This document shows, in pieces, positions 26,670-58,232 of a stretch of DNA of 64,000 nt; position 1 is the stretch's first letter, and each line of letters starts with the position of its first letter. This stretch comes from Micromonospora lutea (GTDB taxonomy: Bacteria; Actinomycetota; Actinomycetes; Mycobacteriales; Micromonosporaceae): the NCBI RefSeq assembly GCF_016863535.1, contig NZ_BOPB01000014.1, forward strand, positions 186,001 to 250,000, read 5' to 3'. The notes under the pieces are model-generated. The model had not been told where the DNA came from. It searched no databases and worked only from the letters and a program-made list of their open reading frames with translations. The position numbers and the translations under genes are program-made.

Positions 26670-27494
26670 CTAGTACGTACCGTCGAGCTGCCCCCGCAGC
26701 TTCGTCAGGGCCCGGGCCAGCAGCCGGGACACATGCATCTGCGAGACGCCGATCTGCTCCGCGATCTGCGACTGCGTCAGGTTGCCGTAGAACCGCAGCG
26801 TCAGGATCTTCTGCTCACGCTCGTCAAGCGTGGCCAGCGCCGGGCCCAGCGCGACCCGCAGCTCGGCCAGCTCGAACTCGCTGTCCTCGCCGCCGAGCAT
26901 GTCGCCCAGCTCGGTCGCGCGGTCACCGTCGCCGGTCGGGGTGGACAGCGACACCGCGTTGTACGCGCGGGCGCCCTCCAGGCCTTCCAGCACCTCTTCC
27001 TCGGTGAGCTTCAGGTGGGCGGCGATGTCGGCGACCGTCGGGGAACGGCCCAGGGTCTGCAGCAGGGTGCTGTTGGCGTCGGAGATCGCCAGCCGCAGCT
27101 CCTGCAACCGGCGGGGTACGCGGATGTCCCACGTCCGGTCGCGGAAGTGCCGCTTCAGCTCACCGATGATGGTGGGGATCGCGTAGCCGGCGAAGTCGAC
27201 CCCGCGGGAGGGGTCGAACTTGTCGATGGCCTTGATGAGCCCGACAGCAGCGGTCTGTGCGAGATCGTCGGTGGGCTCGCCGCGACCGCTGTAGCGGTGG
27301 GCGAGGTGGTTGGCCAGTGGCAGCCAGGCCTCGATCGCCCGCTCGCGCAGCGCGTCCCGGGAGGGGTGCCCGGCCGGCAGCGCGGCCATGGCGTTCAGTA
27401 GCTCGGCGGCGCTGTCGGTGAGCGCCCGTGGGTCGAGCTTGGCGGCCGGGGTCGCCTGGGTGGTTGCCGGCTCGGTGATCGTTGGCGCGGTCAT
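26670..27494 (-). CDS. SigB/SigF/SigG-type RNA polymerase sigma factor
   Basis: A 274-residue alternative sigma-70 factor of the stress/sporulation group. Region 2 contains DDLAQTAAVGLIKAIDKFDPSRG and the -10-recognising YAIPTIIGELKRHFRDRTWDIRVPRR; region 3 and the region 4 helix-turn-helix (LTQSQIAEQIGVSQMHVSRLLARAL) follow. Such factors recognise GTTT-N14-16-GGGTA promoters, which are abundant in this window. No anti-sigma or antagonist gene adjoins it. ATG at 27494 follows CAGGGAGG. The 391-bp region upstream is AT-richer than its surroundings and may hold several promoters. Confidence 0.93.
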   Translation of the reverse strand: MTAPTITEPATTQATPAAKLDPRALTDSAAELLNAMAALPAGHPSRDALRERAIEAWLPLANHLAHRYSGRGEPTDDLAQTAAVGLIKAIDKFDPSRGVDFAGYAIPTIIGELKRHFRDRTWDIRVPRRLQELRLAISDANSTLLQTLGRSPTVADIAAHLKLTEEEVLEGLEGARAYNAVSLSTPTGDGDRATELGDMLGGEDSEFELAELRVALGPALATLDEREQKILTLRFYGNLTQSQIAEQIGVSQMHVSRLLARALTKLRGQLDGTY

Positions 27495-27885
27495 GGTGGT
27501 CCTCCCTGCACCTCGTCCGCGGATATAGACGTGACGCTTTGGTTGGTTCTGTTAGTACGTTCGGGAGACACCTTAGCCCGATCGTCTCCAGGAAATCTAG
27601 CCGAACGGACGATGTACTTAAGTTATTTATCTTCCGAAAAGCCATAAATCGGTACACGGCAGCGCGGCCGGGCTCGGTGAATCCTCATGGAACCGGCGTC
27701 CTGACGGCCGATCGGGCCACTCGGGGATGCCCGAACGTCGCTCGCCGCCGGGTCGCACGATGGCACGCAGGCGTCGAACGGACGATGCCGACGGCTTGTG
27801 GCAGCACGAGTGTCACCAATCCGTCGTTGTCCCGTGGACGGGACCGGGCTTAGCGTCGCGGGGTACATCCTGATCCGGAGGTGCC
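27495..27885. other. long AT-richer intergenic region upstream of the sigma-factor gene
   Basis: It contains an AT-rich stretch at about 27610-27660, a 6-bp inverted repeat GGAGAC...GTCTCC near 27562-27590, and a 13-nt direct repeat CGAACGGACGATG at 27602-27614 and 27775-27787. GGGTAC at 27861-27866 resembles a SigB-type -10 for the next plus-strand gene, but no -35 fits. I see no gene in it. Confidence 0.5.
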
Positions 27886-46675: not shown

Positions 46676-46701
46676 GTACCCGGCCCACGGCGGCTGCTAA
46701 C
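46676..46701 (-). promoter_or_regulatory. SigB-type promoter GTTA-N16-GGGTAC for the SRPBCC gene
   Basis: On the minus strand, GTTA at 46701-46698, a 16-nt spacer and GGGTAC at 46681-46676, ending 9 nt before GTG 46666. Confidence 0.6.
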
Positions 46702-46712
46702 GGTGCGGCCGG

Positions 46713-46738
46713 GTTAGCTTCTCGGCGACCGCGGGTAA
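46713..46738 (+). promoter_or_regulatory. candidate SigB-type promoter GTTA-N16-GGGTAA for the heptose operon
   Basis: GTTA at 46713-46716, a 16-nt spacer and GGGTAA at 46733-46738. It would leave a leader of about 140 nt before GTG 46885, so it is weaker than the others. Confidence 0.35.
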
Positions 46739-46884
46739 GGCCACCGCGGGCGGCCGTGCGAGATGCCGCCCGGTGCGCGGTGTCGTCGACCGGGTCGCCG
46801 GTGACGTTTACTCACCGGGGCGCAGGGAACCCGCCGCCCGTGCGACAGGATCAGGGGGAGCCGGGTCAGCGCAGGTCAGCGAGG

Positions 46885-48597
46885 GTGCTGGCCGATGCCG
46901 ACCGGGCCGTGTCCCGTCCCGTCCTGTTCGACGCGGTGCTGCTGGACCGCGACGGCACCCTGGTCGAGGACGTGCCGTACAACTCGGATCCGGACAAGGT
47001 GCGACCGGTGCCGGGAGCCCGCGCGGCGCTGGACCGGCTGCGGGCGGCCGGGCTGAAGCTCGCCGTGGTGACCAACCAGTCCGGGTTGGCCCGGGGGCTG
47101 TTCACCGAGCGGCAGTTGCACCAGGTGCACCGCCGGATCGAGGCGCTGCTCGGCCCGTTCGACTCCTGGCAGGTGTGTCCCCACGACGACGGGGACGACT
47201 GTACGTGTCGCAAACCGAGACCGGGCCTGGTGCACGCCGCCGCCCGGGAACTGGGCACCGTACCCACCCGCTGCGTCATGATCGGTGACATCGGCCGCGA
47301 CGTCACGGCGGCGCTGGCCGCCGGTGCGGCCGGCATCCTGGTCCCGACGCCGGTGACCCGCGCCGAGGAGGTGGCGGCCGCCCCCTGGGTCGCCGCCGAC
47401 CTGTCCTCGGCCGTGGCGGAGATCCTTCGACGTCAGGCCGCCCTCAGCCCGGCGGAGCCGATGTCGGTCGGCAGCCGAGCCGGTCCCACGGATGCCCGGC
47501 GCGCCCACGCGGGACGCGGTCGCACGGTGCTGGTGGTGCGCTCGGACTCGGCGGGGGACGTGCTGGTGACCGGACCGGGTATCCGGGCGGTCGCCGCCGG
47601 GGCCGAGCGGGTGGTGCTGCTCTGCGGGCCCCGGGGACGGGCCGCCGCCGACCTGCTGCCCGGGGTCGACGAGGTGGTCGAGCACCGGCTGCCCTGGATC
47701 GACCCGGCCCCCGCGCCGGTGGATCCGCAGGAGATGGCCACCCTGGTCGCCCGGCTGGCGGCGGTGGCCGCCGACGAGGCGGTCATCTTCACCTCGTTCC
47801 ACCAGTCGCCGCTGCCGTTGGCTCTGCTGCTGCGGATGGCCGGGGTCGCCCGGATCGCGGCGATCAGCGACGACTACCCCGGCAGCCTGCTGGACGTGCG
47901 ACACCGGGTGCCGGTCGGGGTGCCGGAGGCTGAGCGGGCGCTCTCGCTGGCCGCCGCCGCGGGCTTTGCGCTCGGCGATGGCGACGAACCGCACCTGCGA
48001 CTGCGCCCGGTACCGCCGGCACCGCCCGAGGCCGGCGAACCGGGCTACGTGGTGCTGCATCCCGGCTCGGCGGCCCCGGCCCGGGGTTGCCCGCCCGAAC
48101 TGGCCGAACGGATCGCCGACGAGCTGAGCGCCGCCGGCCACCAGGTGGTGGTCACCGGTGGTCCGCACGAGCGGGACCTCACCGCGCGGGTCGCCGGGCG
48201 GCACTGCCGGGACCTCGGCGGCCGTACCGGCCTGGCCGAGCTGGCCGGGATCGTGGCCGCCGCCGGTGCGGTGGTGGTCGGCAACACCGGGCCGGCGCAT
48301 CTGGCCGCCGCGTACGGCGTGCCGGTGGTCAGCCTCTTCGCGCCCACCGTCCCGTTCGGGCAGTGGGGGCCGTGGCGGGTGCCGACGGTACGCCTCGGCG
48401 ACGCCACCGCCGCCTGCCGCGACACCCGGGCCGCGCGGTGTCCGGTACCCGGGCATCCCTGCCTCAGCAATGTCGAGCCCGGTGCCGTCCTGGACGCGTT
48501 GCGACTGCTGGGTGTGCCGCCGGACCGGTCGCCCACCGGGCCGACCAGATCGTCGGCACCCGAGGTGGCCACCGTCGGCGGTGGGGGCGTCCGATGA
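46885..48597 (+). CDS. GmhB-like HAD phosphatase fused to a GT9 heptosyltransferase-like domain
   Basis: A 570-residue two-domain protein. The first 180 residues match D,D-heptose 1,7-bisphosphate phosphatase: LLDRDGTLVEDVPYN (Asp21, Asp23), VTNQSGLARG, the zinc loop CPHDDGDDCTCRKPRPG (Cys98, His100, Cys106, Cys108) and MIGDIGRD. The second part (about 210-545) is a GT9 domain like ADP-heptose:LPS heptosyltransferase: VLVVRSDSAGDVLVTGPGIRAV, VVLHPGSAAPARGCP, and VVVGNTGPAHLAAAYGVPVV. So one chain would make heptose 1-phosphate and transfer heptose. The start is uncertain; GTG 46909 is also possible. It overlaps the next gene by 4 nt. Confidence 0.88.
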   Translation: MLADADRAVSRPVLFDAVLLDRDGTLVEDVPYNSDPDKVRPVPGARAALDRLRAAGLKLAVVTNQSGLARGLFTERQLHQVHRRIEALLGPFDSWQVCPHDDGDDCTCRKPRPGLVHAAARELGTVPTRCVMIGDIGRDVTAALAAGAAGILVPTPVTRAEEVAAAPWVAADLSSAVAEILRRQAALSPAEPMSVGSRAGPTDARRAHAGRGRTVLVVRSDSAGDVLVTGPGIRAVAAGAERVVLLCGPRGRAAADLLPGVDEVVEHRLPWIDPAPAPVDPQEMATLVARLAAVAADEAVIFTSFHQSPLPLALLLRMAGVARIAAISDDYPGSLLDVRHRVPVGVPEAERALSLAAAAGFALGDGDEPHLRLRPVPPAPPEAGEPGYVVLHPGSAAPARGCPPELAERIADELSAAGHQVVVTGGPHERDLTARVAGRHCRDLGGRTGLAELAGIVAAAGAVVVGNTGPAHLAAAYGVPVVSLFAPTVPFGQWGPWRVPTVRLGDATAACRDTRAARCPVPGHPCLSNVEPGAVLDALRLLGVPPDRSPTGPTRSSAPEVATVGGGGVR

Positions 48598-49565
48598 ACA
48601 TCCTGCTCTGGCACGTGCACGGTTCCTGGACCACCTCGTTCGTGCACGGAAAGCACCGCTACCTGATTCCGGCCACTCCCGACCGGGGGCCGTACGGGCT
48701 GGGCCGTGCCCGGACGTACACCTGGCCGGAGAGCGCCGCGGAGGTGAGCCCGGAGCAGTTGCGTGACGCCGAGGTCGACCTGGTGATCCTGCAACGCCCC
48801 GAGGAACTCGACCTGGCGCAGGAGTGGCTCGGTCGCCGGCCCGGTCGGGACCTGCCGGCGATCTACGTGGAGCACAACACGCCGAAGGACGGCCAGGTCC
48901 CCGACAGCCGCCACCCGATGGCCGACCGGGACGATCTGCTCATCGCCCACGTGACCGCCTTCAACGAGCTGTTCTGGGACACCGGCGCCACCCGTACCAC
49001 CGTCGTCGACCACGGCATCGTGACACCGGCGGTGACCTGGACCGGAGAACTCGACCGGTTGGCCGTCGTGATCAACGAGCCGGTACGTCGCTGGCGGGTC
49101 ACCGGCACCGACCTGCTGCCCCGGTTCGCCGAGATCGCCCCGTTGGACGTCTTCGGCATGAAGGTGGCCGGGTTGGCGGAGCACCTCGGTCTGCCGGCCG
49201 ACCGGGTGACCAGCCACGACGACGTGCCGCAACACCGGATGCACGCCGAGCTGGCGCGCCGCCGGGCGTACCTGCACCTCTGCCGGTGGACGTCGCTGGG
49301 GTTGAGCCTGATCGAGGCGATGACGATGGGCATGCCGGTGGTGGCGCTGGCCACCACCGAAGCGGTGATGGCGGTGCCGCCGGGTGCCGGCGCCCTCTCC
49401 ACCCGGGTGGACGCGCTGCTGGAGGCCGCGAGCCGGTTCGTCGCGGAACCGCAGCGGGCGCGCCGGGCGGGTGCCGAGGCGCGCGTCGCCGCCCGCGAAC
49501 GGTACGGCCTCGACCGTTTCCTCACCGACTGGGACCGGCTGCTGGAGGAGGAAGTATGCGGATAG
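48594..49565 (+). CDS. glycosyltransferase (GT-B type), heptose operon
   Basis: A 323-residue glycosyltransferase. It starts MNILLWHVHGSWTTSFVHGKHRYLIP; the C-terminal GT1/4-like part has LHLCRWTSLGLSLIEAMTMGMPVVALATTE, with the E-x7-E-type sugar-nucleotide contact region, and VEHNTPKDGQVPD in the middle. Donor and acceptor are unknown. It begins within the ATGA overlap with the upstream gene and overlaps the next gene by 10 nt, so it is translated in the same coupled operon. Confidence 0.82.
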   Translation: MNILLWHVHGSWTTSFVHGKHRYLIPATPDRGPYGLGRARTYTWPESAAEVSPEQLRDAEVDLVILQRPEELDLAQEWLGRRPGRDLPAIYVEHNTPKDGQVPDSRHPMADRDDLLIAHVTAFNELFWDTGATRTTVVDHGIVTPAVTWTGELDRLAVVINEPVRRWRVTGTDLLPRFAEIAPLDVFGMKVAGLAEHLGLPADRVTSHDDVPQHRMHAELARRRAYLHLCRWTSLGLSLIEAMTMGMPVVALATTEAVMAVPPGAGALSTRVDALLEAASRFVAEPQRARRAGAEARVAARERYGLDRFLTDWDRLLEEEVCG

Positions 49566-50773
49566 CGATGATCTCGGAGCACGCCAGCCCGCTCGCCATC
49601 CTGGGCGGCGAGGACGCCGGTGGCCAGAACACGCACGTCGCGGAACTCTCCGCCGCGCTCGTCGCCGCCGGGCACGACGTGCGGGTCTACACCCGCCGCG
49701 ACGCCGTGGACCTTCCGGTGACCGTACGCAGTCCGGACGGCTACCACGTGGTGCACGTCCCGGCGGGGCCGGCCGAGCCGTTGGCGAAGGACGCGCTGCT
49801 GCCCCACATGCGTCCGTTCGGCGCCTGGCTGATCGACCGGTGGCGGGGCGGCGACTGGGCCCCCGAGGTGATCCACGCGCACTTCTGGATGAGTGGGCTG
49901 GCCGCGCTGGAGGCCGGCCGGCGCACCGGGGTACCGGTGGTGCAGACGTATCACGCGCTCGGCACGGTGAAGCGTCGCCACCAGGGCGTGCAGGACACCA
50001 GCCCGGCCCGGCGGATCGGCTACGAGCGCCACCTGGGCTGTTCGGTGGACCGGGTGATCGCGCAGTGCCGCGACGAGGTCGGTGAGCTGGTCCGGATGGG
50101 CGTCCCACGCACGGCGATGACGGTGATCCCGTCCGGTGTCAACCTCGCCACCTTCGCTCCGCTGGGCCCGGCCACCGAGCGGGAGCCCGGCCGCGCCCGG
50201 ATCCTCACCGTGGGACGGCTGGTGGAACGCAAGGGCTTCCAGACGGTGGTCCGGGCGATGGCGCACGTACCGGAGGCCGAGTGCGTGGTGGTCGGTGGCC
50301 CGCCGGCCGGTCTGCTGGAGACCGATCCGTACGCCCGACGGCTGCGGGCGCTCGCCGGTAGCTGCGGCGTCGCCGACCGGGTCCGACTGGTCGGCGCGGT
50401 GCCCCGGGAGGAGATGGGCCGCTGGTACCGCTCGGCGGACATCCTGGTGGCGGCGCCCTGGTACGAGCCGTTCGGGTTGACCCCGCTGGAGGCGATGGCG
50501 TGCGGGGTGCCCGTGGTGGCCACCGCCGTGGGCGGGCTACGTGACACGGTGGTCGACGGCGTGACCGGGGACCTGGTGCCGGCGCGGGATCCGCGCGCGC
50601 TGGGAGAGGCGCTGCGGGCACTGCTCGACGACCGGATCCGTCGGTTCGCGTACGCGGGTGCGGCGCGTGCCCGGGCCCGCCGGCACTACTCGTGGGCGGT
50701 CACCGCCCAGCGCCTCGCCGAGGTGTACGGCGAGGTCGCCGCCGTGCACCGACCGACCCGGGTGGTGGCCTGA
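49556..50773 (+). CDS. GT4 glycosyltransferase, heptose operon
   Basis: A 405-residue GT4 enzyme of the MshA/sucrose-phosphate-synthase-like type. Visible: MRIAMISEHASPLAILGGEDAGGQNTHVAELSAAL (nucleotide-sugar loop), TYHALG, VIPSGVNLATFAPL, GRLVERKGFQT, and the C-terminal EPFGLTPLEAMACGVPVVATAVGGL donor-binding motif. The first two amino acids of the conserved start confirm ATG 49556, inside the end of the previous gene. It ends with TGATG, sharing a base with the gmhA-like start. Confidence 0.9.
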   Translation: MRIAMISEHASPLAILGGEDAGGQNTHVAELSAALVAAGHDVRVYTRRDAVDLPVTVRSPDGYHVVHVPAGPAEPLAKDALLPHMRPFGAWLIDRWRGGDWAPEVIHAHFWMSGLAALEAGRRTGVPVVQTYHALGTVKRRHQGVQDTSPARRIGYERHLGCSVDRVIAQCRDEVGELVRMGVPRTAMTVIPSGVNLATFAPLGPATEREPGRARILTVGRLVERKGFQTVVRAMAHVPEAECVVVGGPPAGLLETDPYARRLRALAGSCGVADRVRLVGAVPREEMGRWYRSADILVAAPWYEPFGLTPLEAMACGVPVVATAVGGLRDTVVDGVTGDLVPARDPRALGEALRALLDDRIRRFAYAGAARARARRHYSWAVTAQRLAEVYGEVAAVHRPTRVVA

Positions 50774-51426
50774 TGAGTCTGCTCGACGCGCATCTGGCCC
50801 ACCTGACCGCGGCGCTGCCGCCGTTCCGACGCTGTGAGCCGCTGCTCGCCCGGTGGGGCGCGACGCTGGCCCGACGACTCACCGACGGCGGTCGGCTGCT
50901 CGTGGCCGGCAACGGTGGCAGCGCTGCCGAGGCGCAGCATCTGACCGCCGAGCTGGTCGGCAAGCTCCGCGACGACCGCCAGCCGTTGTCCGCCATCGCG
51001 CTGCACGCCGAGACGTCGGCGTTGACCGCGATCGGCAACGACTACGGCTACGCGGAGGTCTTCGCCCGGCAGGTCCGCGCGCACGGCCGTCCCGACGACG
51101 TGCTGTTGCTGCTGTCCACCAGTGGCGGCAGCGGCAACCTGCTTGCCGCCGCGCGGGCCGGCCAGGAGGCGGGACTGCGTTGCTGGGCGTTCACCGGGCC
51201 GACGCCGAACCCGCTCGCCGAGGCGTGTCACGAGGTGCTCGCCGTGGACTCCCCGGACACCCAGGTGGTCCAGGAGCTGCACCTGGTCTCCAGCCACCTG
51301 CTCTGCGAGTACGTCGAGCAGGCGATGGCGGAGCAGCTCGCACCGGCTGCCCCGGCGGCCGACGCGGTGCGGACCGGTGTCGAGGTGGTGCTGGACGGTG
51401 GTGCCGTGCGGCCGGTGCAGGCGTGA
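50773..51426 (+). CDS. gmhA: sedoheptulose 7-phosphate isomerase-like SIS protein
   Basis: A 217-residue SIS-domain protein of the phosphoheptose isomerase type, converting sedoheptulose 7-phosphate to D-glycero-D-manno-heptose 7-phosphate in the first heptose step. Motifs: LLVAGNGGSAAEAQHLTAELVGK (from residue 44), IGNDYGYAEVFARQV, LLLSTSGGSGNLLAAARAG and VDSPDTQVVQELHLVSSHLLCEYVE. The catalytic Glu and His of GmhA are expected in AEAQHLTAEL and QELHL, both present. ATG at 50773 is coupled to the GT4 stop. Confidence 0.87.
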   Translation: MSLLDAHLAHLTAALPPFRRCEPLLARWGATLARRLTDGGRLLVAGNGGSAAEAQHLTAELVGKLRDDRQPLSAIALHAETSALTAIGNDYGYAEVFARQVRAHGRPDDVLLLLSTSGGSGNLLAAARAGQEAGLRCWAFTGPTPNPLAEACHEVLAVDSPDTQVVQELHLVSSHLLCEYVEQAMAEQLAPAAPAADAVRTGVEVVLDGGAVRPVQA

Positions 51427-51436
51427 GGAGGCAAGC

Positions 51437-52873
51437 GTGACGGGACCCGTGGTGGTGGTCGGCGACACCCTGCTCGACCGGGACGTCGAGGGGGTGGTCA
51501 ACCGGCTCTGTCCGGATTCGCCGGTGCCGGTGCTCGACGAGATCGCGCACGTGGACCGGCCCGGAGGCGCGGGCCTCTCCGCCGTCTTCGCCGCCGCACA
51601 GGGTGCCGAGGTGGTCCTGGTGACCGCGCTGGCCGACGATGCCGGTGGGGCTCGGCTGAGTGTGCTGCTCGCCGCCGCCGGGGTGCAGGTGTACCCGTTG
51701 CGACTGGCCGGTGCGACCCCGGAGAAGATCCGGCTGCGGTCCGGGGGGCGGGTGCTGCTGCGTCACGACCGGGGTGGCGGGATGGGGGAGTCGGGGGAGC
51801 CGAGCGATGCGGTGCTGCGGGTCCTGGACCGGGCGTCGGTGGTGCTGGTCAGCGATTATGGCCGCGCGGTGGCGCGGCAGCCGGCGCTGCGGGCGGCGCT
51901 GACCTCGATCCGCGCCCCGCTGGTGTGGGACCCCCACCCCCGTGGGCCGGCCGCGGTACCGGGGGCGAACCTGGTCACCCCGAACGAGGCGGAGGTGCGG
52001 GAGCTGATGGAGGCGCCGGTCGGTGCCACCCGGCTGGCCACTGCCGCCGAGGGGGCGCAGCGGCTGCGGCAGCGGTGGCGGGCGGGGGCGGTCGCGGTGA
52101 CGCTCGGTGCCGACGGCGCGCTGCTCAGCCACGCCGCGTCGACACCGCTGATGGTGCCCGCCCCGGTGGCCGCCGAGGGAGACACCTGTGGCGCGGGCGA
52201 CCGGTTCGCCGTCGCCGCCGGCCTCGCCCTGGCCCGTGGCGCGCTGGTCTCCGAGGCGGTGCAGGAGGCGGTGGCGGAGGCTTCGGCGTACGTGGCGGAC
52301 GGTGGTGTGGCGACGGCCCTGCCGACGCCGGTGCGGCGTGCCCCGCAGGCGGTGCACGCCGCGGTCGCCGGCGACCGGGTGGGGGTGGCCGCGTCCGCTG
52401 CCGTGGTCGCCCGGGTCCGCGCCGCCGGTGGGACGGTCGTCGCGACCGGTGGTTGTTTCGACCTGTTGCACGCCGGCCACGTGGCGACGCTGCAGGCCGC
52501 CCGGCAGCTCGGTGACTGCCTGGTCGTGTGCCTCAACTCCGATGTCAGCGTCGCCGGGCTCAAGGGGCCGGACCGGCCGGTGATGCGCCAGGACGACCGG
52601 AGTCGCCTACTGGCCGCGCTGAGCTGTGTCGACGCGGTGATGATCTTCGACGAGCCGACGCCGGCGGCGGCGCTGTCCTGGCTACGCCCGGACATCTGGG
52701 TCAAGGGTGGCGACTATGCCACCGGCGGTGGTGCCGGTGACGGCCTCCCGGAGGCGGAGATCCTGCGTCGGTGGGGCGGTCACACGGTGGTGGTGCCCTA
52801 TCTGGACGGGCGCTCCACCACCGAGATGATCGCCGCGACGGCCAACCGCAACGTGCTGGAGGTGCGGCGGTGA
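51437..52873 (+). CDS. hldE: HldE-like heptose 7-phosphate kinase / 1-phosphate adenylyltransferase
   Basis: A 478-residue bifunctional enzyme. The PfkB/ribokinase-like domain (1-310) phosphorylates D-glycero-D-manno-heptose 7-phosphate at C1; it has LVTPNEAEVREL and EGDTCGAGDRFAVAAG (catalytic GAGD at 252-255). The C-terminal nucleotidyltransferase domain (325-478) has TGGCFDLLHAGHVATLQAAR (HAGH at 345-348), then CLNSDVSVAGLKGPDRPV and DRSRLLAALSCVDAV, and would make the NDP-heptose, ADP-heptose if it follows HldE. GTG at 51437 follows GAGGAGG. The order kinase-adenylyltransferase is the same as in Gram-negative HldE. Confidence 0.9.
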   Translation: MTGPVVVVGDTLLDRDVEGVVNRLCPDSPVPVLDEIAHVDRPGGAGLSAVFAAAQGAEVVLVTALADDAGGARLSVLLAAAGVQVYPLRLAGATPEKIRLRSGGRVLLRHDRGGGMGESGEPSDAVLRVLDRASVVLVSDYGRAVARQPALRAALTSIRAPLVWDPHPRGPAAVPGANLVTPNEAEVRELMEAPVGATRLATAAEGAQRLRQRWRAGAVAVTLGADGALLSHAASTPLMVPAPVAAEGDTCGAGDRFAVAAGLALARGALVSEAVQEAVAEASAYVADGGVATALPTPVRRAPQAVHAAVAGDRVGVAASAAVVARVRAAGGTVVATGGCFDLLHAGHVATLQAARQLGDCLVVCLNSDVSVAGLKGPDRPVMRQDDRSRLLAALSCVDAVMIFDEPTPAAALSWLRPDIWVKGGDYATGGGAGDGLPEAEILRRWGGHTVVVPYLDGRSTTEMIAATANRNVLEVRR

Positions 52874-53586
52874 GCGTGCGGAGTGAGCCGGTGAGTGCGC
52901 CGGGTGCCGGCCGGACCGTGCTGGTCACCGGCGGTTCCAGCGGACTGGGCGCGGCGGTGGTGACGGCGGTGGCCGCCGCCGGTGGGCGACCCCTGGTGCT
53001 GGACCGGCAGGCGCCGGCCGACGGGGTGCCCTGGGTGGAGTGCGACCTGGCCGACACCCGCAGCGCCGAGGCGGCCACCCGCGAGCTGGCCGAGCGGGTG
53101 GGCGGGTTGGACGGCGTGGTCACCGCCGCCGGCATCGACGTGCCGGGCCGGCTCGCCGACGTGCCCGGCGAGACCTGGGAACGGATCATCGCCGTCGACC
53201 TGCTGGCCACCGCCGCGGTGGTCCGGGCCGCACTGCCGTTCCTGGTTGCCTCCCGGGGCGCCGTCGTGACGGTGGCCTCCACCCTCGGCGTCAAGGCGGT
53301 CAGCGACGCGACGGCGTACTGCGCGGCGAAGTTCGGGGTGGTGGGGTTCACCCGGGCGCTCGCCGCCGAGATGGCCGGCACGGTGGGTGTCACGCTGCTC
53401 ATCCCGGGTGGGATGCGGACGGCGTTCTTCGACGAGCGTGACCCGCAGTACCGGCCCGGAGCGGACGCGATCCTCAACGAGCCGGCCGACACCGCCGCCG
53501 CCGTGATGTTCGCCCTGTCCCAGCCGGCCGGTTGCGCGATCCGCGAGATGGTGGTCTGCGCCGATCAGGAGACGTCGTACCCGTGA
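52870..53586 (+). CDS. classical short-chain dehydrogenase/reductase, heptose operon
   Basis: A 238-residue SDR. Cofactor motif TGGSSGLG (20-27), CDLADTRSA (adenine-binding acid), TAAG (instead of NNAG), catalytic Ser137 and Tyr150-x3-Lys154 (YCAAK), and the P-G-G-M-R-T loop are all present. It is a classical SDR, not the extended SDR type of ADP-heptose epimerase HldD, yet it sits where HldD would be expected. It may oxidise or reduce the heptose or a later intermediate. GTG at 52870 overlaps the HldE stop by 4 nt. Confidence 0.87.
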   Translation: MSVRSEPVSAPGAGRTVLVTGGSSGLGAAVVTAVAAAGGRPLVLDRQAPADGVPWVECDLADTRSAEAATRELAERVGGLDGVVTAAGIDVPGRLADVPGETWERIIAVDLLATAAVVRAALPFLVASRGAVVTVASTLGVKAVSDATAYCAAKFGVVGFTRALAAEMAGTVGVTLLIPGGMRTAFFDERDPQYRPGADAILNEPADTAAAVMFALSQPAGCAIREMVVCADQETSYP

Positions 53587-54536
53587 TCCTGGCGCTGCGT
53601 GCCCTCGGCGTCGGTGACCTCGCCACCGTGGTCCCGGCGTTGCGGGCGCTGCGCGCGGCCCATCCGGACGAGCAACTGGTGCTCGCCGCGCCGGCCTGGC
53701 TCGGGCCGTTGGTCGAGCTGGTCGGTGGGGTGGACCGGCTGCTGCCCACCGACGGCCTGGAGCGGCTGGACCGGCCCGTCGGGCGGGTGGAGGTGGCGGT
53801 CAACCTGCACGGTCAGGGTCCGCAGTCGCACCGGCTGTTGGCCGCCGTCCGCCCCGGCCGGTTGCTCGCCTTCGCCAACGCCGAGGTGCCGCACGCCGAC
53901 GGGCCGGAGTGGGACGACGACGAGCACGAGGTGTCGCGCTGGTGCCGGCTGCTGCGTGGGTACGGCATTCCGGCCGATCCGACCGACCTGGAGCTCCGCC
54001 GACCGGGCCCGGAGGTGGCGGTCCGTGGTGTCACGGTGCTGCACCCCGGCTCGAAGGAGCCGGCCAAGCGCTGGCCGGCCGGCCGGTACACGGCACTGGC
54101 CCGGGAGCTGACCGGGCGGGGACACCGGGTGGTGCTGACCGGCAGCGCGGCGGAGCGGGCCGTGACCGCCCGCATCGCGTACCAGGCCGGACTGCCCGCC
54201 GCTTCGGTGCTGGCTGGCCGGACGAACCTGGCCCAGCTCGCCGCGCTGATCGCCGGGGCTCGCCTGGTGATCAGTGGGGACACCGGAGTGGCGCATCTGG
54301 CCACCGGCTACCGCACCCCGTCGGTGGTGTTGTTCGGTCCGGTTCCACCCACTCGGTGGGGCCCCCCGCCGGAGCGCCGACGGCACCGGGCGCTCTGGGC
54401 CGGTACGCGCGCATGGCCGGAGTGGAACGGGGTAGGTGACCATCCCACAATGGTCGCCCTCGGTGTGGACGAGGTGCTGGCCGCCGTCGACGAGGTGGAG
54501 CGGGCGGTGCGGGTGGACCGTGCGGTTGCGGCGTAG
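53583..54536 (+). CDS. GT9-family glycosyltransferase (second copy)
   Basis: A 317-residue enzyme of the ADP-heptosyltransferase family. It starts VILALRALGVGDLATVVPALRALRAAHP, with VLHPGSKEPAKRWPAGRYTALA, VVLTGSAAERAV and LVISGDTGVAHLATGYRTPSVVLFGP, which is the donor-site signature of the family. Together with the GT9 half of the fusion at 46885 it would add successive heptoses. GTG at 53583 overlaps the SDR stop by 4 nt, and its own end overlaps the topoisomerase frame by 17 nt. Confidence 0.88.
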   Translation: MILALRALGVGDLATVVPALRALRAAHPDEQLVLAAPAWLGPLVELVGGVDRLLPTDGLERLDRPVGRVEVAVNLHGQGPQSHRLLAAVRPGRLLAFANAEVPHADGPEWDDDEHEVSRWCRLLRGYGIPADPTDLELRRPGPEVAVRGVTVLHPGSKEPAKRWPAGRYTALARELTGRGHRVVLTGSAAERAVTARIAYQAGLPAASVLAGRTNLAQLAALIAGARLVISGDTGVAHLATGYRTPSVVLFGPVPPTRWGPPPERRRHRALWAGTRAWPEWNGVGDHPTMVALGVDEVLAAVDEVERAVRVDRAVAA

Positions 54537-55503
54537 CGATCCGGGTCGGCCGGGGTACCGGCGACGTCGGCGCGGCAGGGGCTGGTCGTTCCTGGACCCG
54601 CGCGGCGAGCCGGTGCGCGACCCCGACGAGCTGGCCCGGCTGCGGGCACTGGTCATCCCGCCGGCCTGGCAGGACGTGTGGATCTCGTCGTACCCCAACG
54701 GACACATCCAGGCCATCGGCGTGGACGCGGCCGGTCGCAAGCAGTACCTCTACCACCCGTTGTGGCGGCAGCGGCAGGACGAGGCGAAGTTCGACCATGT
54801 GCTGGAGGTGGCGGGCCGGCTGCCGTTGCTGCGTGAGCGGGTCGACCATGACCTGACGGTGCGGGGGCTGCGCCGCGAGCGGGTACTGGCGACGGTGACC
54901 CGACTGCTCGACATGGGCACCTTCCGGGTCGGCAGCGACCAGTACGCGGCGGGCGAGGATCCGACGTTCGGGGTGGCGACCCTGCGGCCTGAGCATGCCC
55001 GGCTGCGCCGGGGCTGCGTGCTGTTCGAGTTCCCGGCCAAGGGTGGCATCGAGCAGGTACGGCTGATCTCCGATCCGCAGTTGTGCCGGGTACTGACCGA
55101 CCTGAGTCGGCGTCGGCGGGCGGCGGACCGGTTGTTCGGCTACTGGGACGGGCAGCAGTGGCGGGACGTACGGGCCGACGAGGTCAACGACTACCTCCGC
55201 GAGGCCAGCGGCGGCGAGATGACCGCGAAGGACTTCCGCACCTGGCATGCGACGGTACGGGCGGCGACGGAGTTGGCCGGGTTCGCTGCCGCCCGGTCGG
55301 TGACCGCCCGTCGCCGGGCGGTGGCGGCGGTGATGAGGCAGGTGGCGGAACTGCTCGGCAACACGCCGACGGTGGCTCGCGCATCGTACGTGGACCCGAG
55401 GGTGGTGGATCTGTTCCATGACGGCGTGGTCGCCCCGGTGACCGAGGGGACCTCTCCGGAGCAGGCCGAGCGGGCGGTGCTGACCCTGCTGGCGCGGGCC
55501 TGA
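54520..55503 (+). CDS. bacterial DNA topoisomerase IB
   Basis: A 327-residue type IB topoisomerase of the poxvirus-like bacterial group, which relaxes supercoils through a 3'-phosphotyrosyl intermediate. Segments: the start RGEPVRDPDELARLRALVIPPAWQDVWIS, YPNGHIQAIGVDAAGRKQYLYHPLW, RHVLF-like GCVLFEFPAKGG, KDFRTWHATVRAATEL (catalytic Arg/Lys region) and the nucleophile in ASYVDPRVVDLF. GTG at 54520 lies within the GT9 end, so expression is coupled to the operon, though the role is unrelated. Confidence 0.9.
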   Translation: MRLRRSDPGRPGYRRRRRGRGWSFLDPRGEPVRDPDELARLRALVIPPAWQDVWISSYPNGHIQAIGVDAAGRKQYLYHPLWRQRQDEAKFDHVLEVAGRLPLLRERVDHDLTVRGLRRERVLATVTRLLDMGTFRVGSDQYAAGEDPTFGVATLRPEHARLRRGCVLFEFPAKGGIEQVRLISDPQLCRVLTDLSRRRRAADRLFGYWDGQQWRDVRADEVNDYLREASGGEMTAKDFRTWHATVRAATELAGFAAARSVTARRRAVAAVMRQVAELLGNTPTVARASYVDPRVVDLFHDGVVAPVTEGTSPEQAERAVLTLLARA

Positions 55504-58138: not shown

Positions 58139-58156
58139 CCTCACCCCACCCGCCTT

Positions 58157-58205
58157 GATCATGAGGTTGACGGCGGTCTCGAAAACTGCCGCCAACCTCA
58201 TGATC
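58157..58205. terminator. long hairpin between convergent genes
   Basis: Arms of 21 nt (GATCATGAGGTTG, then ACGGCGGT, and its complement at 58185-58205) with two mismatches around a 7-nt loop. Probably a bidirectional terminator; the sequence resembles other dispersed palindromes. Confidence 0.75.
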
Positions 58206-58232
58206 GACGGGTCAGGTGGGGCGGAGGGCGGA

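Follow-up and report, generated by a model that had tools for sequence, protein, structure and literature searches.

What a Gram-positive actinomycete makes with a set of genes for nucleotide-activated heptose is the question raised by seven plus-strand open reading frames (ORFs) of Micromonospora lutea, which occupy positions 46885-54536 of a 64,000-nt window (positions 186,001 to 250,000 of contig NZ_BOPB01000014.1, assembly GCF_016863535.1; coordinates below are those of the window). An earlier note, made from the sequence alone, had described a seven-gene heptose/glycosyltransferase operon whose likely product was a heptose-containing surface glycan or glycolipid, and could match it to no known system. 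The ORFs, their place and strand were all as described, with Pfam and NCBIfam backing each domain assignment, and a surface glycan or glycolipid is still the most likely product from gene context, but the locus does have a known counterpart: with a probability of roughly 0.7, we consider it a Micromonospora version of an operon for a heptose glycan that is widespread in actinobacteria and whose core, by gene order and published labels, is homologous to the Streptomyces cwg operon. That core is already known from cwg; what is new is a genus-wide shortened form with a GmhB-GT9 fusion, SigB-type promoter boxes, and a second, fuller copy, and none of these three elements was described in the literature searched, in searches that did not target each one individually and left most subscription journals outside.

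The operon lies on contig C14 of the 6.09-Mb host genome, has a GC content of 0.73-0.76 throughout and reads, by Pfam and NCBIfam, GmhB-GT9 fusion, GTa, GT4, GmhA, HldE, short-chain dehydrogenase/reductase (SDR) and GT9, GT denoting a glycosyltransferase (Table 1). The fusion and GTa overlap by 4 nt (48594/48597), as do HldE and the SDR (52870/52873) and the SDR and the last GT9 (53583/53586); GT4 and GmhA share 1 nt (50773), GmhA and HldE are separated by 10 nt (51426/51437), and the GTa/GT4 junction is a 10-nt overlap or a 2-nt gap depending on whether GT4 starts at 49556 or 49568 (GTa ends at 49565). Alternative starts also exist for the first gene (GTG at 46885 or 46909) and for HldE (51437 or 51449). 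Because the order and content of these genes are repeated in dozens of named loci, the operon is not a product of chance.

The NCBIfam heptose models were the top matches for the HAD domain of the fusion, for GmhA and for HldE alike. For the HAD domain the best match was PRK08942 (GmhB; 128 bits against a cut-off of 178), cut-offs were passed only for the generic models TIGR01656 and TIGR01662 (histidinol-phosphatase domain and HAD-IIIA), and the domain aligned with PDB entries 3l8h (a putative HAD hydrolase) and 4pnh and 2gmw (D,D-heptose bisphosphatases). GmhA scored 150 bits with TIGR00441 (cut-off 209), aligned with PDB 2xbl/2x3y, and is the sole strong GmhA of its genome, the other match reaching 28.9 bits. 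HldE reached 254 bits with PRK11316 and 169 bits with TIGR02199, each under its cut-off, and aligned with PDB 5x9q (labelled a putative cytidylyltransferase) and the heptose-7-phosphate kinase 4e84. The zinc motif CxH..CxC of the HAD domain was present in all 90 homologues and the pattern D[RL]DG[TVI] in 80; among the HldE homologues the kinase motif G[AC]GD was found in 89/89 and KGGDY and HxGH in 87/89; the GmhA motif Q[EM]xHLxxxH was kept in 89 of 93 and a GNGGSA pattern in 71. Scores under the curated heptose equivalog cut-offs, together with an HAD domain that passes only generic models, would suit drifted SIS, PfkB-nucleotidyltransferase and HAD domains that act on another sugar phosphate and make no heptose, but this explanation is quite improbable given that heptose enzymes are the top model in each case, that the catalytic and metal motifs are retained and that the three activities are joined in one operon. 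Pfam, NCBIfam and motif evidence thus supports the earlier note's proposal that this Gram-positive actinomycete has, alongside glycosyltransferases, all of GmhA, HldE and GmhB, the full set for nucleotide-activated D-glycero-D-manno-heptose.

Of the proposed product ADP-heptose, the nucleoside diphosphate (NDP)-heptose part stood, but ADP may not be the sole nucleotide. The (F/L)xxGxSTT-type motif of HldE is YLDGRSTT in the window, with Tyr instead of F/L at the first position and Arg at the fifth, and the Arg recurs in 80 of the 89 HldE homologues. According to a commentary on Tang et al. 2024 (PMC11461863; all papers are cited here for what their accessible portions contain), this Arg (STTR5, of a nucleoside triphosphate-promiscuous HENase) allows CDP- and UDP-heptose synthesis; taking the Arg as motif residue 5 is our reading of the commentary's wording. 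The nucleotide used by the window HldE is possibly not only ADP, with CDP or UDP serving too. The beta-D-manno-heptose enzymes discussed across kingdoms in that commentary include the same HldE-type nucleotidyltransferase with Arg, whereas the window HldE is tied to a glycosyltransferase operon, a context that suggests a role beyond NDP-heptose synthesis (PMC11461863). The window shares with the ADP-heptose pathway of Gram-negative lipopolysaccharide (LPS; GmhA, HldE, GmhB, HldD and WaaC/WaaF) four steps, those of isomerase, kinase, phosphatase and nucleotidyltransferase, and a single canonical GT9, but in the window genome the best HldD match, at 112 bits, stays under the family cut-off of 274.6, GmhB is fused to a GT9 and HldE has Arg before STT. 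No lipid A context was seen, and none was sought.

Turning to the glycosyltransferases, we used KRWP and D-[ST]-G-x-x-H, the signatures of GT9 heptosyltransferases, both of which are visible in the alignment with 1psw. The terminal GT9 aligned with WaaF (1psw) and has both; across the 82 terminal GT9 proteins examined, the D-T/S-G type motif was present in 81, and at the other position 37 had KRWP, two had KCWP and 43 gave no pattern match. The AlphaFold model of GTa, built with 52 aligned window and locus sequences, had a predicted local distance difference test (pLDDT) score of 91.8 and a predicted template modelling (pTM) score of 0.90, and its Foldseek matches (50 listed) were BshA, sucrose-phosphate synthase, PimB' and other GT4 enzymes at 12-17% identity, so that the predicted fold class is clear; the protein is 95% identical to one of M. 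andamanensis. GT4 scored 247 bits with the NCBIfam MshA model (cut-off 462), 199 bits with PDB 6kih and 168 bits with MshA 3c4q. The YxxxK motif of the SDR was found in 72/72 homologues examined.

The ordered core of the operon recurs in loci of Actinoplanes and of Streptomyces; in the latter the row reads epimerase, carbamoyltransferase (CarbT), GT2, HAD, GT9, GTa, GT4, GmhA, HldE, GT9. The cwg operon of S. coelicolor, SCO6179-6190, was reportedly identified as a sigma-E target by Hong et al. in 2002. In a published table, SCO6180, SCO6181, SCO6183, SCO6185 and SCO6188 are labelled "putative transferase", SCO6182 "putative dehydratase", SCO6186 "putative phosphoheptose isomerase" and SCO6187 "putative bifunctional synthase/transferase" (PMC5839063), and all eight labelled genes (SCO6180-6183 and SCO6185-6188) agree with the Streptomyces order (positions 2-5 and 7-10), five of these labels being no more than "putative transferase"; the isomerase beside the bifunctional enzyme is the telling part of the match, and the others are generic. 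The cwg operon is described as a 12-gene sigma-E target predicted to serve cell wall glycan synthesis, induced by vancomycin in a partly sigma-E-dependent manner (PMC6767563), and salt activates its first gene, cwgA (PMC13011467); the word heptose is absent from the main text of both papers in its accessible portions. Judged via other Streptomyces loci and the labels, the window and S. coelicolor cwg have in common the core HAD-GT9-GTa-GT4-GmhA-HldE-GT9 in the same order, but the window is without the 5' dehydratase/epimerase, carbamoyltransferase and GT2; it adds an SDR (0/13 Streptomyces-type loci), joins HAD and GT9 in one protein, and has SigB-type boxes where the cwg promoter is reported to be of sigma-E type. 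These comparisons fit homology of the window core with SCO6179-6190. The Streptomyces dehydratase/epimerase was also considered as an HldD-like enzyme and set aside: its best match was dTDP-glucose 4,6-dehydratase, far under cut-off, and HldD gave no match at 1e-20.

Homologous clusters were searched for within and beyond the genus. Full-length HldE at 77% identity or more was found in 33 of the 37 same-genus genomes (own genome included), the remaining four having HldE fragments on broken contigs or in split frames, and seven of the 37 carry a second HldE copy at 64-67% identity. Outside the genus, a cwg-type HldE occurred in 8/24 genomes from other families of the order, and the gene set was present in all eight loci fetched from them, the ordered core in three (L019, L020 and L024, the last two without the SDR). 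L025 lacks a called last GT9 and L026 a called GmhA; in L021-L023 GTa is separated from the remaining genes, as is GT4 in two of them; and L020, L021, L022, L023 and L026 join GT2 and a GmhB-type HAD domain in one ORF, a different fusion. In a sample of 296 genomes spread evenly across the phylum, which are not independent lineages, searches with HldE alignment A2 (E 1e-40) and GTa alignment A1 (E 1e-20) found HldE in 38, GTa in 31 and both in 29, and in 29/29 of the latter, coordinates compared by hand placed the two genes within 10 kb of each other on a single contig. Named contigs of GTDB held at least 571 GTa relatives, the best 80 loci being retained. By these sequence searches, the operon is core to Micromonospora and spread across several actinobacterial families. 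HldE in pieces or without nucleotidyltransferase motifs was seen at G036:C1:2332846-2334244, L041 and L065, from decay or draft-sequence errors.

Gene content was then compared by group, with groups made by hand from organism names (L083 in none) and counts restricted to full-length loci, those of 17 kb or less being omitted (42 reduced to 34, 6 to 4, 17 to 13 and 6 to 5, with 9 retained). The main copies of Micromonospora, Salinispora, Verrucosispora and Plantactinospora (n = 34, window included) have epimerase, CarbT and GT2 in 0/34, and HAD with the first GT9, GTa with GT4, HldE, the SDR and a neighbouring topoisomerase IB in all 34; GmhA was called in 33 and the last GT9 in 32. Clusters combining HldE and the GmhB-GT9 fusion, which the earlier note had suggested looking for, were thus found, with HldE in 34/34 and the fusion in 33/34. 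All four second Micromonospora copies have CarbT, GT2 and the fusion, and none has the epimerase. Among Phytohabitans, Actinoplanes and relatives (n = 9), CarbT, GT2 and the SDR were present in nine and the fusion in eight; among Streptomyces and Actinacidiphila (n = 13), epimerase and CarbT in 13, GT2 and GT9 in 12, and SDR and fusion in none; among Planobispora, Planomonospora, Streptomonospora and Motilibacter (n = 5), the SDR in five, CarbT and HldE in four, the last GT9 in one and the fusion in none. The Planobispora and Planomonospora loci (L088, L090, L094, L098) have HAD and GTa divergent from a CarbT-GT2-GT9-GT4-GmhA-HldE-SDR row, HldE being unlabelled in L088. Six proteins were concatenated for a midpoint-rooted FastTree phylogeny, which covers 1979 columns and 88 loci, four zero-distance pairs among them each appearing to be one genome in two collections. 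Within Micromonosporaceae, the main Micromonospora copies form the sister group of the second copies (joint support 1.0), the CarbT-bearing Phytohabitans and Actinoplanes loci lie outside both, and Plantactinospora (L065) and M. pattaloongensis (L079), also without CarbT, branch outside both copies. Since the copies are sisters and CarbT-bearing relatives lie outside them, the tree makes a duplication within this lineage likely, accompanied by loss of CarbT and of GT2 in one event or two, though movement of copies may also have played a part. The carbamoyltransferase of the fuller copies is NodU-like and recalls the carbamoylated heptose of Pseudomonas LPS.

This distribution bears on whether the locus could instead belong to an antibiotic or other secondary metabolite that uses ADP-heptose. 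Heptose enzymes do serve septacidin in Streptomyces (PMC11461863), hygromycin B is a further example named in the earlier note, and contig C9 of the same genome pairs a GT9 and a carbamoyltransferase with nonribosomal peptide synthetase (NRPS)-like, radical-SAM and hydroxylase genes. A secondary-metabolite role is nonetheless highly improbable here: at least an HldE fragment occurs in 37/37 same-genus genomes, a genus-wide presence that argues against an antibiotic cluster, and the neighbours are fixed, topoisomerase IB adjoining the operon in 34/34 and a PPM-type GT2 accompanying it in 33/34 full main loci (topoisomerase IB is also present in 6/9 Actinoplanes-type loci). The annotated flanking genes are housekeeping-like (flavin adenine dinucleotide (FAD) oxidoreductase, PPM-type GT2, SRPBCC, topoisomerase IB, aldehyde dehydrogenase, BrkB and a sigma factor), and no NRPS, polyketide synthase, aminocyclitol or nucleoside genes are among them, the rest of the window being unannotated; the earlier note's observation that no aminoglycoside or nucleoside genes are adjacent holds for these annotated neighbours, and the finding it had named as refuting, a known secondary-metabolite locus, was not made.

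Upstream of the operon, two boxes fit the SigB consensus GTTTAA-N12-14-GGG(A/T)A(A/T) and the mapped promoters of S. coelicolor SigB homologues given in PMC8346170. They are nearly invariant in the aligned Micromonospora-type loci, where the intergenic stretch has otherwise diverged: the downstream box is present in 38/38 such loci with upstream DNA and both boxes in 36. In an alignment of 38 upstream regions, the upstream box is absent from L065, L079 and L085. In the 49 upstream regions scanned, at least one SigB-type box was found in 38 and both in 36, against 0.22 expected from shuffles made within 40-base blocks; the background rate of a similar pattern implies about one in 49 by chance, far under the observed 38. 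Ten of the 11 regions without a box start less than 260 bases from a contig end, and the other is L085, from Motilibacter, a member of another family. A divergent promoter-like site faces the SRPBCC gene, and its -35 box and that of the upstream box stand back-to-back, which accounts for an inverted repeat GCTAAC/GTTAGC. In CarbT-first loci a similar box lies 33-34 bases 5' of the called CarbT start in 7/18 (at 390 bases in L084), and of 14 epimerase-first loci scanned with the same patterns two had a SigB-like and none a sigma-E-like site. A stricter sigma-E-like pattern was not found upstream in the window and occurred in 2/49 main-type regions against 0.76 expected; a loose AAC...TTCT pattern matched the window and most loci, but a sigma-E promoter was rejected because the match overlaps the better-conserved GTTAGC-N14-GGGTAA. 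SigB control of the second HldE locus described below was likewise dropped, a site being present in our genome and only 2/20 others (3/21).

The roughly 80-bp leader between promoter and start codon (46803-46880), toward whose end stands a GGATCAGCGCAGGTCAGC-like sequence, is conserved beyond the boxes. At the gathering score, a search over the window matched it to no Rfam family, and permissive searches gave sub-threshold, unrelated matches; a riboswitch was rejected on this ground, the conservation being at least partly explained by the SigB-type promoter. When 46690-46910 was searched as DNA against 41 genomes, strong matches appeared only in the same genus and, by coordinates, upstream of the same operon, so this segment is not a repeated element; the best other match in its own genome covered 65 bases (E 6e-4). 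Two sigma factors in the genome pass the SigB/F/G cut-off, and one is encoded in the window at 26670-27551 (minus strand; family match about 26685-27356), about 20 kb from the operon, making it a candidate user of the SigB-type promoters. The strict pattern occurs eight times in the window, in each case intergenic. We considered a stress-regulon island, with eight sites against 0.65 in a first-order Markov expectation, yet other loci carry about 6.4 per 64 kb (operon loci included) and the idea was abandoned.

Table 1. Features of the putative heptose-glycan operon, its neighbour and SigB-type sites in the window
Feature	Position	Strand	Basis
GmhB-type HAD phosphatase fused to GT9, 570 aa	46885..48597	+	PF00702/PF13242 and PF01075
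GTa, cluster-specific GT-B (GT4-type) glycosyltransferase, 323 aa	48594..49565	+	Pfam, AlphaFold, Foldseek
GT4, MshA/sucrose-phosphate synthase branch, 401-405 aa	49556..50773	+	NCBIfam, PDB matches
GmhA, sedoheptulose-7-phosphate isomerase, SIS domain, 217 aa	50773..51426	+	TIGR00441, PDB alignment
HldE, PfkB and cytidylyltransferase domains, 478 aa	51437..52873	+	PRK11316, TIGR02199, PDB, alignment A2
Classical SDR, 238 aa, YxxxK present	52870..53586	+	PF00106
Terminal GT9, heptosyltransferase-like, 317 aa, KRWP and GDTGxxH	53583..54536	+	PF01075 (106 bits), 1psw
DNA topoisomerase IB, conserved neighbour, probably outside the pathway	54523..55503	+	PF01028 and PF21338
SigB-type box, upstream, GTTAGC-N14-GGGTAA	46713..46738	+	Pattern scan, alignment of 38 upstream regions
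SigB-type box, downstream, GTTTAC-N13-GGGAAC, heading the conserved leader of about 80 bp	46806..46830	+	Pattern scan, alignment
Candidate divergent SigB-type site facing the SRPBCC gene	46676..46701	-	Pattern scan
Further SigB-type sites, intergenic	28645, 39524(-), 41674(-), 41684, 60492(-)		Pattern scan; 3/5 just 5' of a correctly oriented gene

From these data we infer a scheme, in its enzyme activities, transfer order, acceptor, surface location, promoter use and inducing signal alike, in which transcription would be driven by the tandem SigB-type promoters. GmhA would isomerise sedoheptulose 7-phosphate to D-glycero-D-manno-heptose 7-phosphate, HldE would phosphorylate C1, the GmhB domain of the fusion would take off the C7 phosphate, and HldE would then add the nucleotide (ADP, possibly CDP or UDP) to give NDP-D-glycero-beta-D-manno-heptose; this order of steps is the textbook one established in Gram-negative bacteria. 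The terminal GT9 would transfer the heptose, and the fused GT9, GTa and the MshA/sucrose-phosphate synthase-like GT4 would add more sugars in the cytoplasm to an acceptor that may be lipid-, protein- or sugar-borne. The SDR may adjust a sugar or an intermediate, and the finished glycan would reach the envelope via machinery encoded elsewhere. The tandem SigB-type promoters make it probable that the cell deposits the glycan during development or in response to osmotic or general stress.

Several observations weigh against this reading. What the analysis shows directly is genes, motifs, synteny and conserved promoter-like boxes, the homology with cwg is drawn from gene order and published labels, and all three heptose enzymes score under their equivalog cut-offs. 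Both GT9 domains that the earlier note had counted are there, but two heptosyltransferases are not established, the fused domain being without the signature residues that the terminal one keeps: it aligned with PDB 3tov and 1psw, Asn replaces the motif Asp in 90 of 92 homologues (motif not found in two), and KRWP is replaced by R-[AGS]-C-P in 44 of the 92, the remaining 48 giving no match to the pattern. The donors of the fused and terminal GT9 may differ. Pfam identified no flippase, polymerase, phosphoglycosyltransferase or lipid-carrier gene within the operon, for which reason the surface location can be only a presumed one. The strict SigB-type pattern is common (39 occurrences on both strands in 391 kb of other fetched loci), and since it is not rare, its conservation and not its presence bears the promoter argument. 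The S. coelicolor cwg promoter, as given in the accessible part of PMC6767563, had no match with up to nine substitutions at 13 Streptomyces-type loci (14 were listed, and L086, a short contig without the epimerase gene, was left aside), which weakens the case for shared sigma-E control. SCO6185 is stably expressed in S. coelicolor (PMC4630627), ill-suited to strong stress induction there.

The same gaps raise the question of whether the product is a polymer or lipid-linked glycan at all, or a soluble heptosyl oligosaccharide or glycoside acting as a stress metabolite or compatible solute. GT4 is closest to sucrose-phosphate synthase and MshA, enzymes that glycosylate small phosphorylated acceptors, namely phosphorylated sugars or inositol, and both the SigB-type promoters and an operon without flippase, polymerase or lipid-carrier gene would suit such a compound. 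Against this, GTa and the pair of GT9 domains speak for a longer chain, the fuller copies have a GT2 and a NodU-like carbamoyltransferase, and the Streptomyces counterpart is a cell-envelope-stress target (PMC6767563), which leaves the soluble product unlikely. The cwg-type heptose glycan thus remains the preferred reading. We put forward more tentatively, and with clear doubt, that Micromonospora keeps this heptose glycan under a SigB-type general-stress regulon, the Streptomyces homologue being under cell-envelope-stress control, and that its product might be an undescribed heptose-rich envelope glycan or a soluble heptosyl oligosaccharide synthesised as osmotic or dormancy stress requires, from an NDP-heptose that could be CDP- or UDP-heptose.

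Other loci of the genome also carry related genes. A second HldE locus on contig C25 (L015 9178-13075) encodes HldE2, a diverged 622-aa HldE whose two domains are separated by an insert, and after it a GT2, the pair being convergent with a DUF2231-HSP20-GT9 row; HldE2, GT2 and GT9 were present in 20/20 same-genus loci fetched, and an HldE2-type match at about 40-45% in 36/37 same-genus genomes, shorter in the last one. Like the window HldE, HldE2 has kinase and nucleotidyltransferase domains and a GT9 nearby, but it measures 570-784 aa as called, contains the insert and lacks GxST[TS] in 20/21, and no GmhA or GmhB was seen beside the C25 gene. Probably a secondary-metabolite cluster, the contig C9 locus (L016 1730-12840) encodes an AMP-binding/PP-binding/nitroreductase protein, a GT9, a NodU-type carbamoyltransferase, a radical SAM protein and an Asp/Arg hydroxylase. 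Within the window, a long intergenic hairpin at 58141-58219, perhaps a bidirectional terminator or a repeat, was matched solely by an unrelated microRNA model under its gathering score.

Collectively, the evidence of the conserved core suggests a heptose glycan where the accessible literature has the cwg product only as "predicted", and the literature searched yielded no paper on envelope heptose in Micromonospora and none on what the cwg product is chemically. The chemistry thereby becomes testable, as D-glycero-D-manno-heptose would be sought in the envelopes of Gram-positive bacteria not expected to have any. Organisms with this operon should contain NDP-heptose, which gives the finding relevance to ALPK1 innate immunity. 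For the evolution of regulation, one biosynthetic core has apparently come to stand behind different stress sigma factors.

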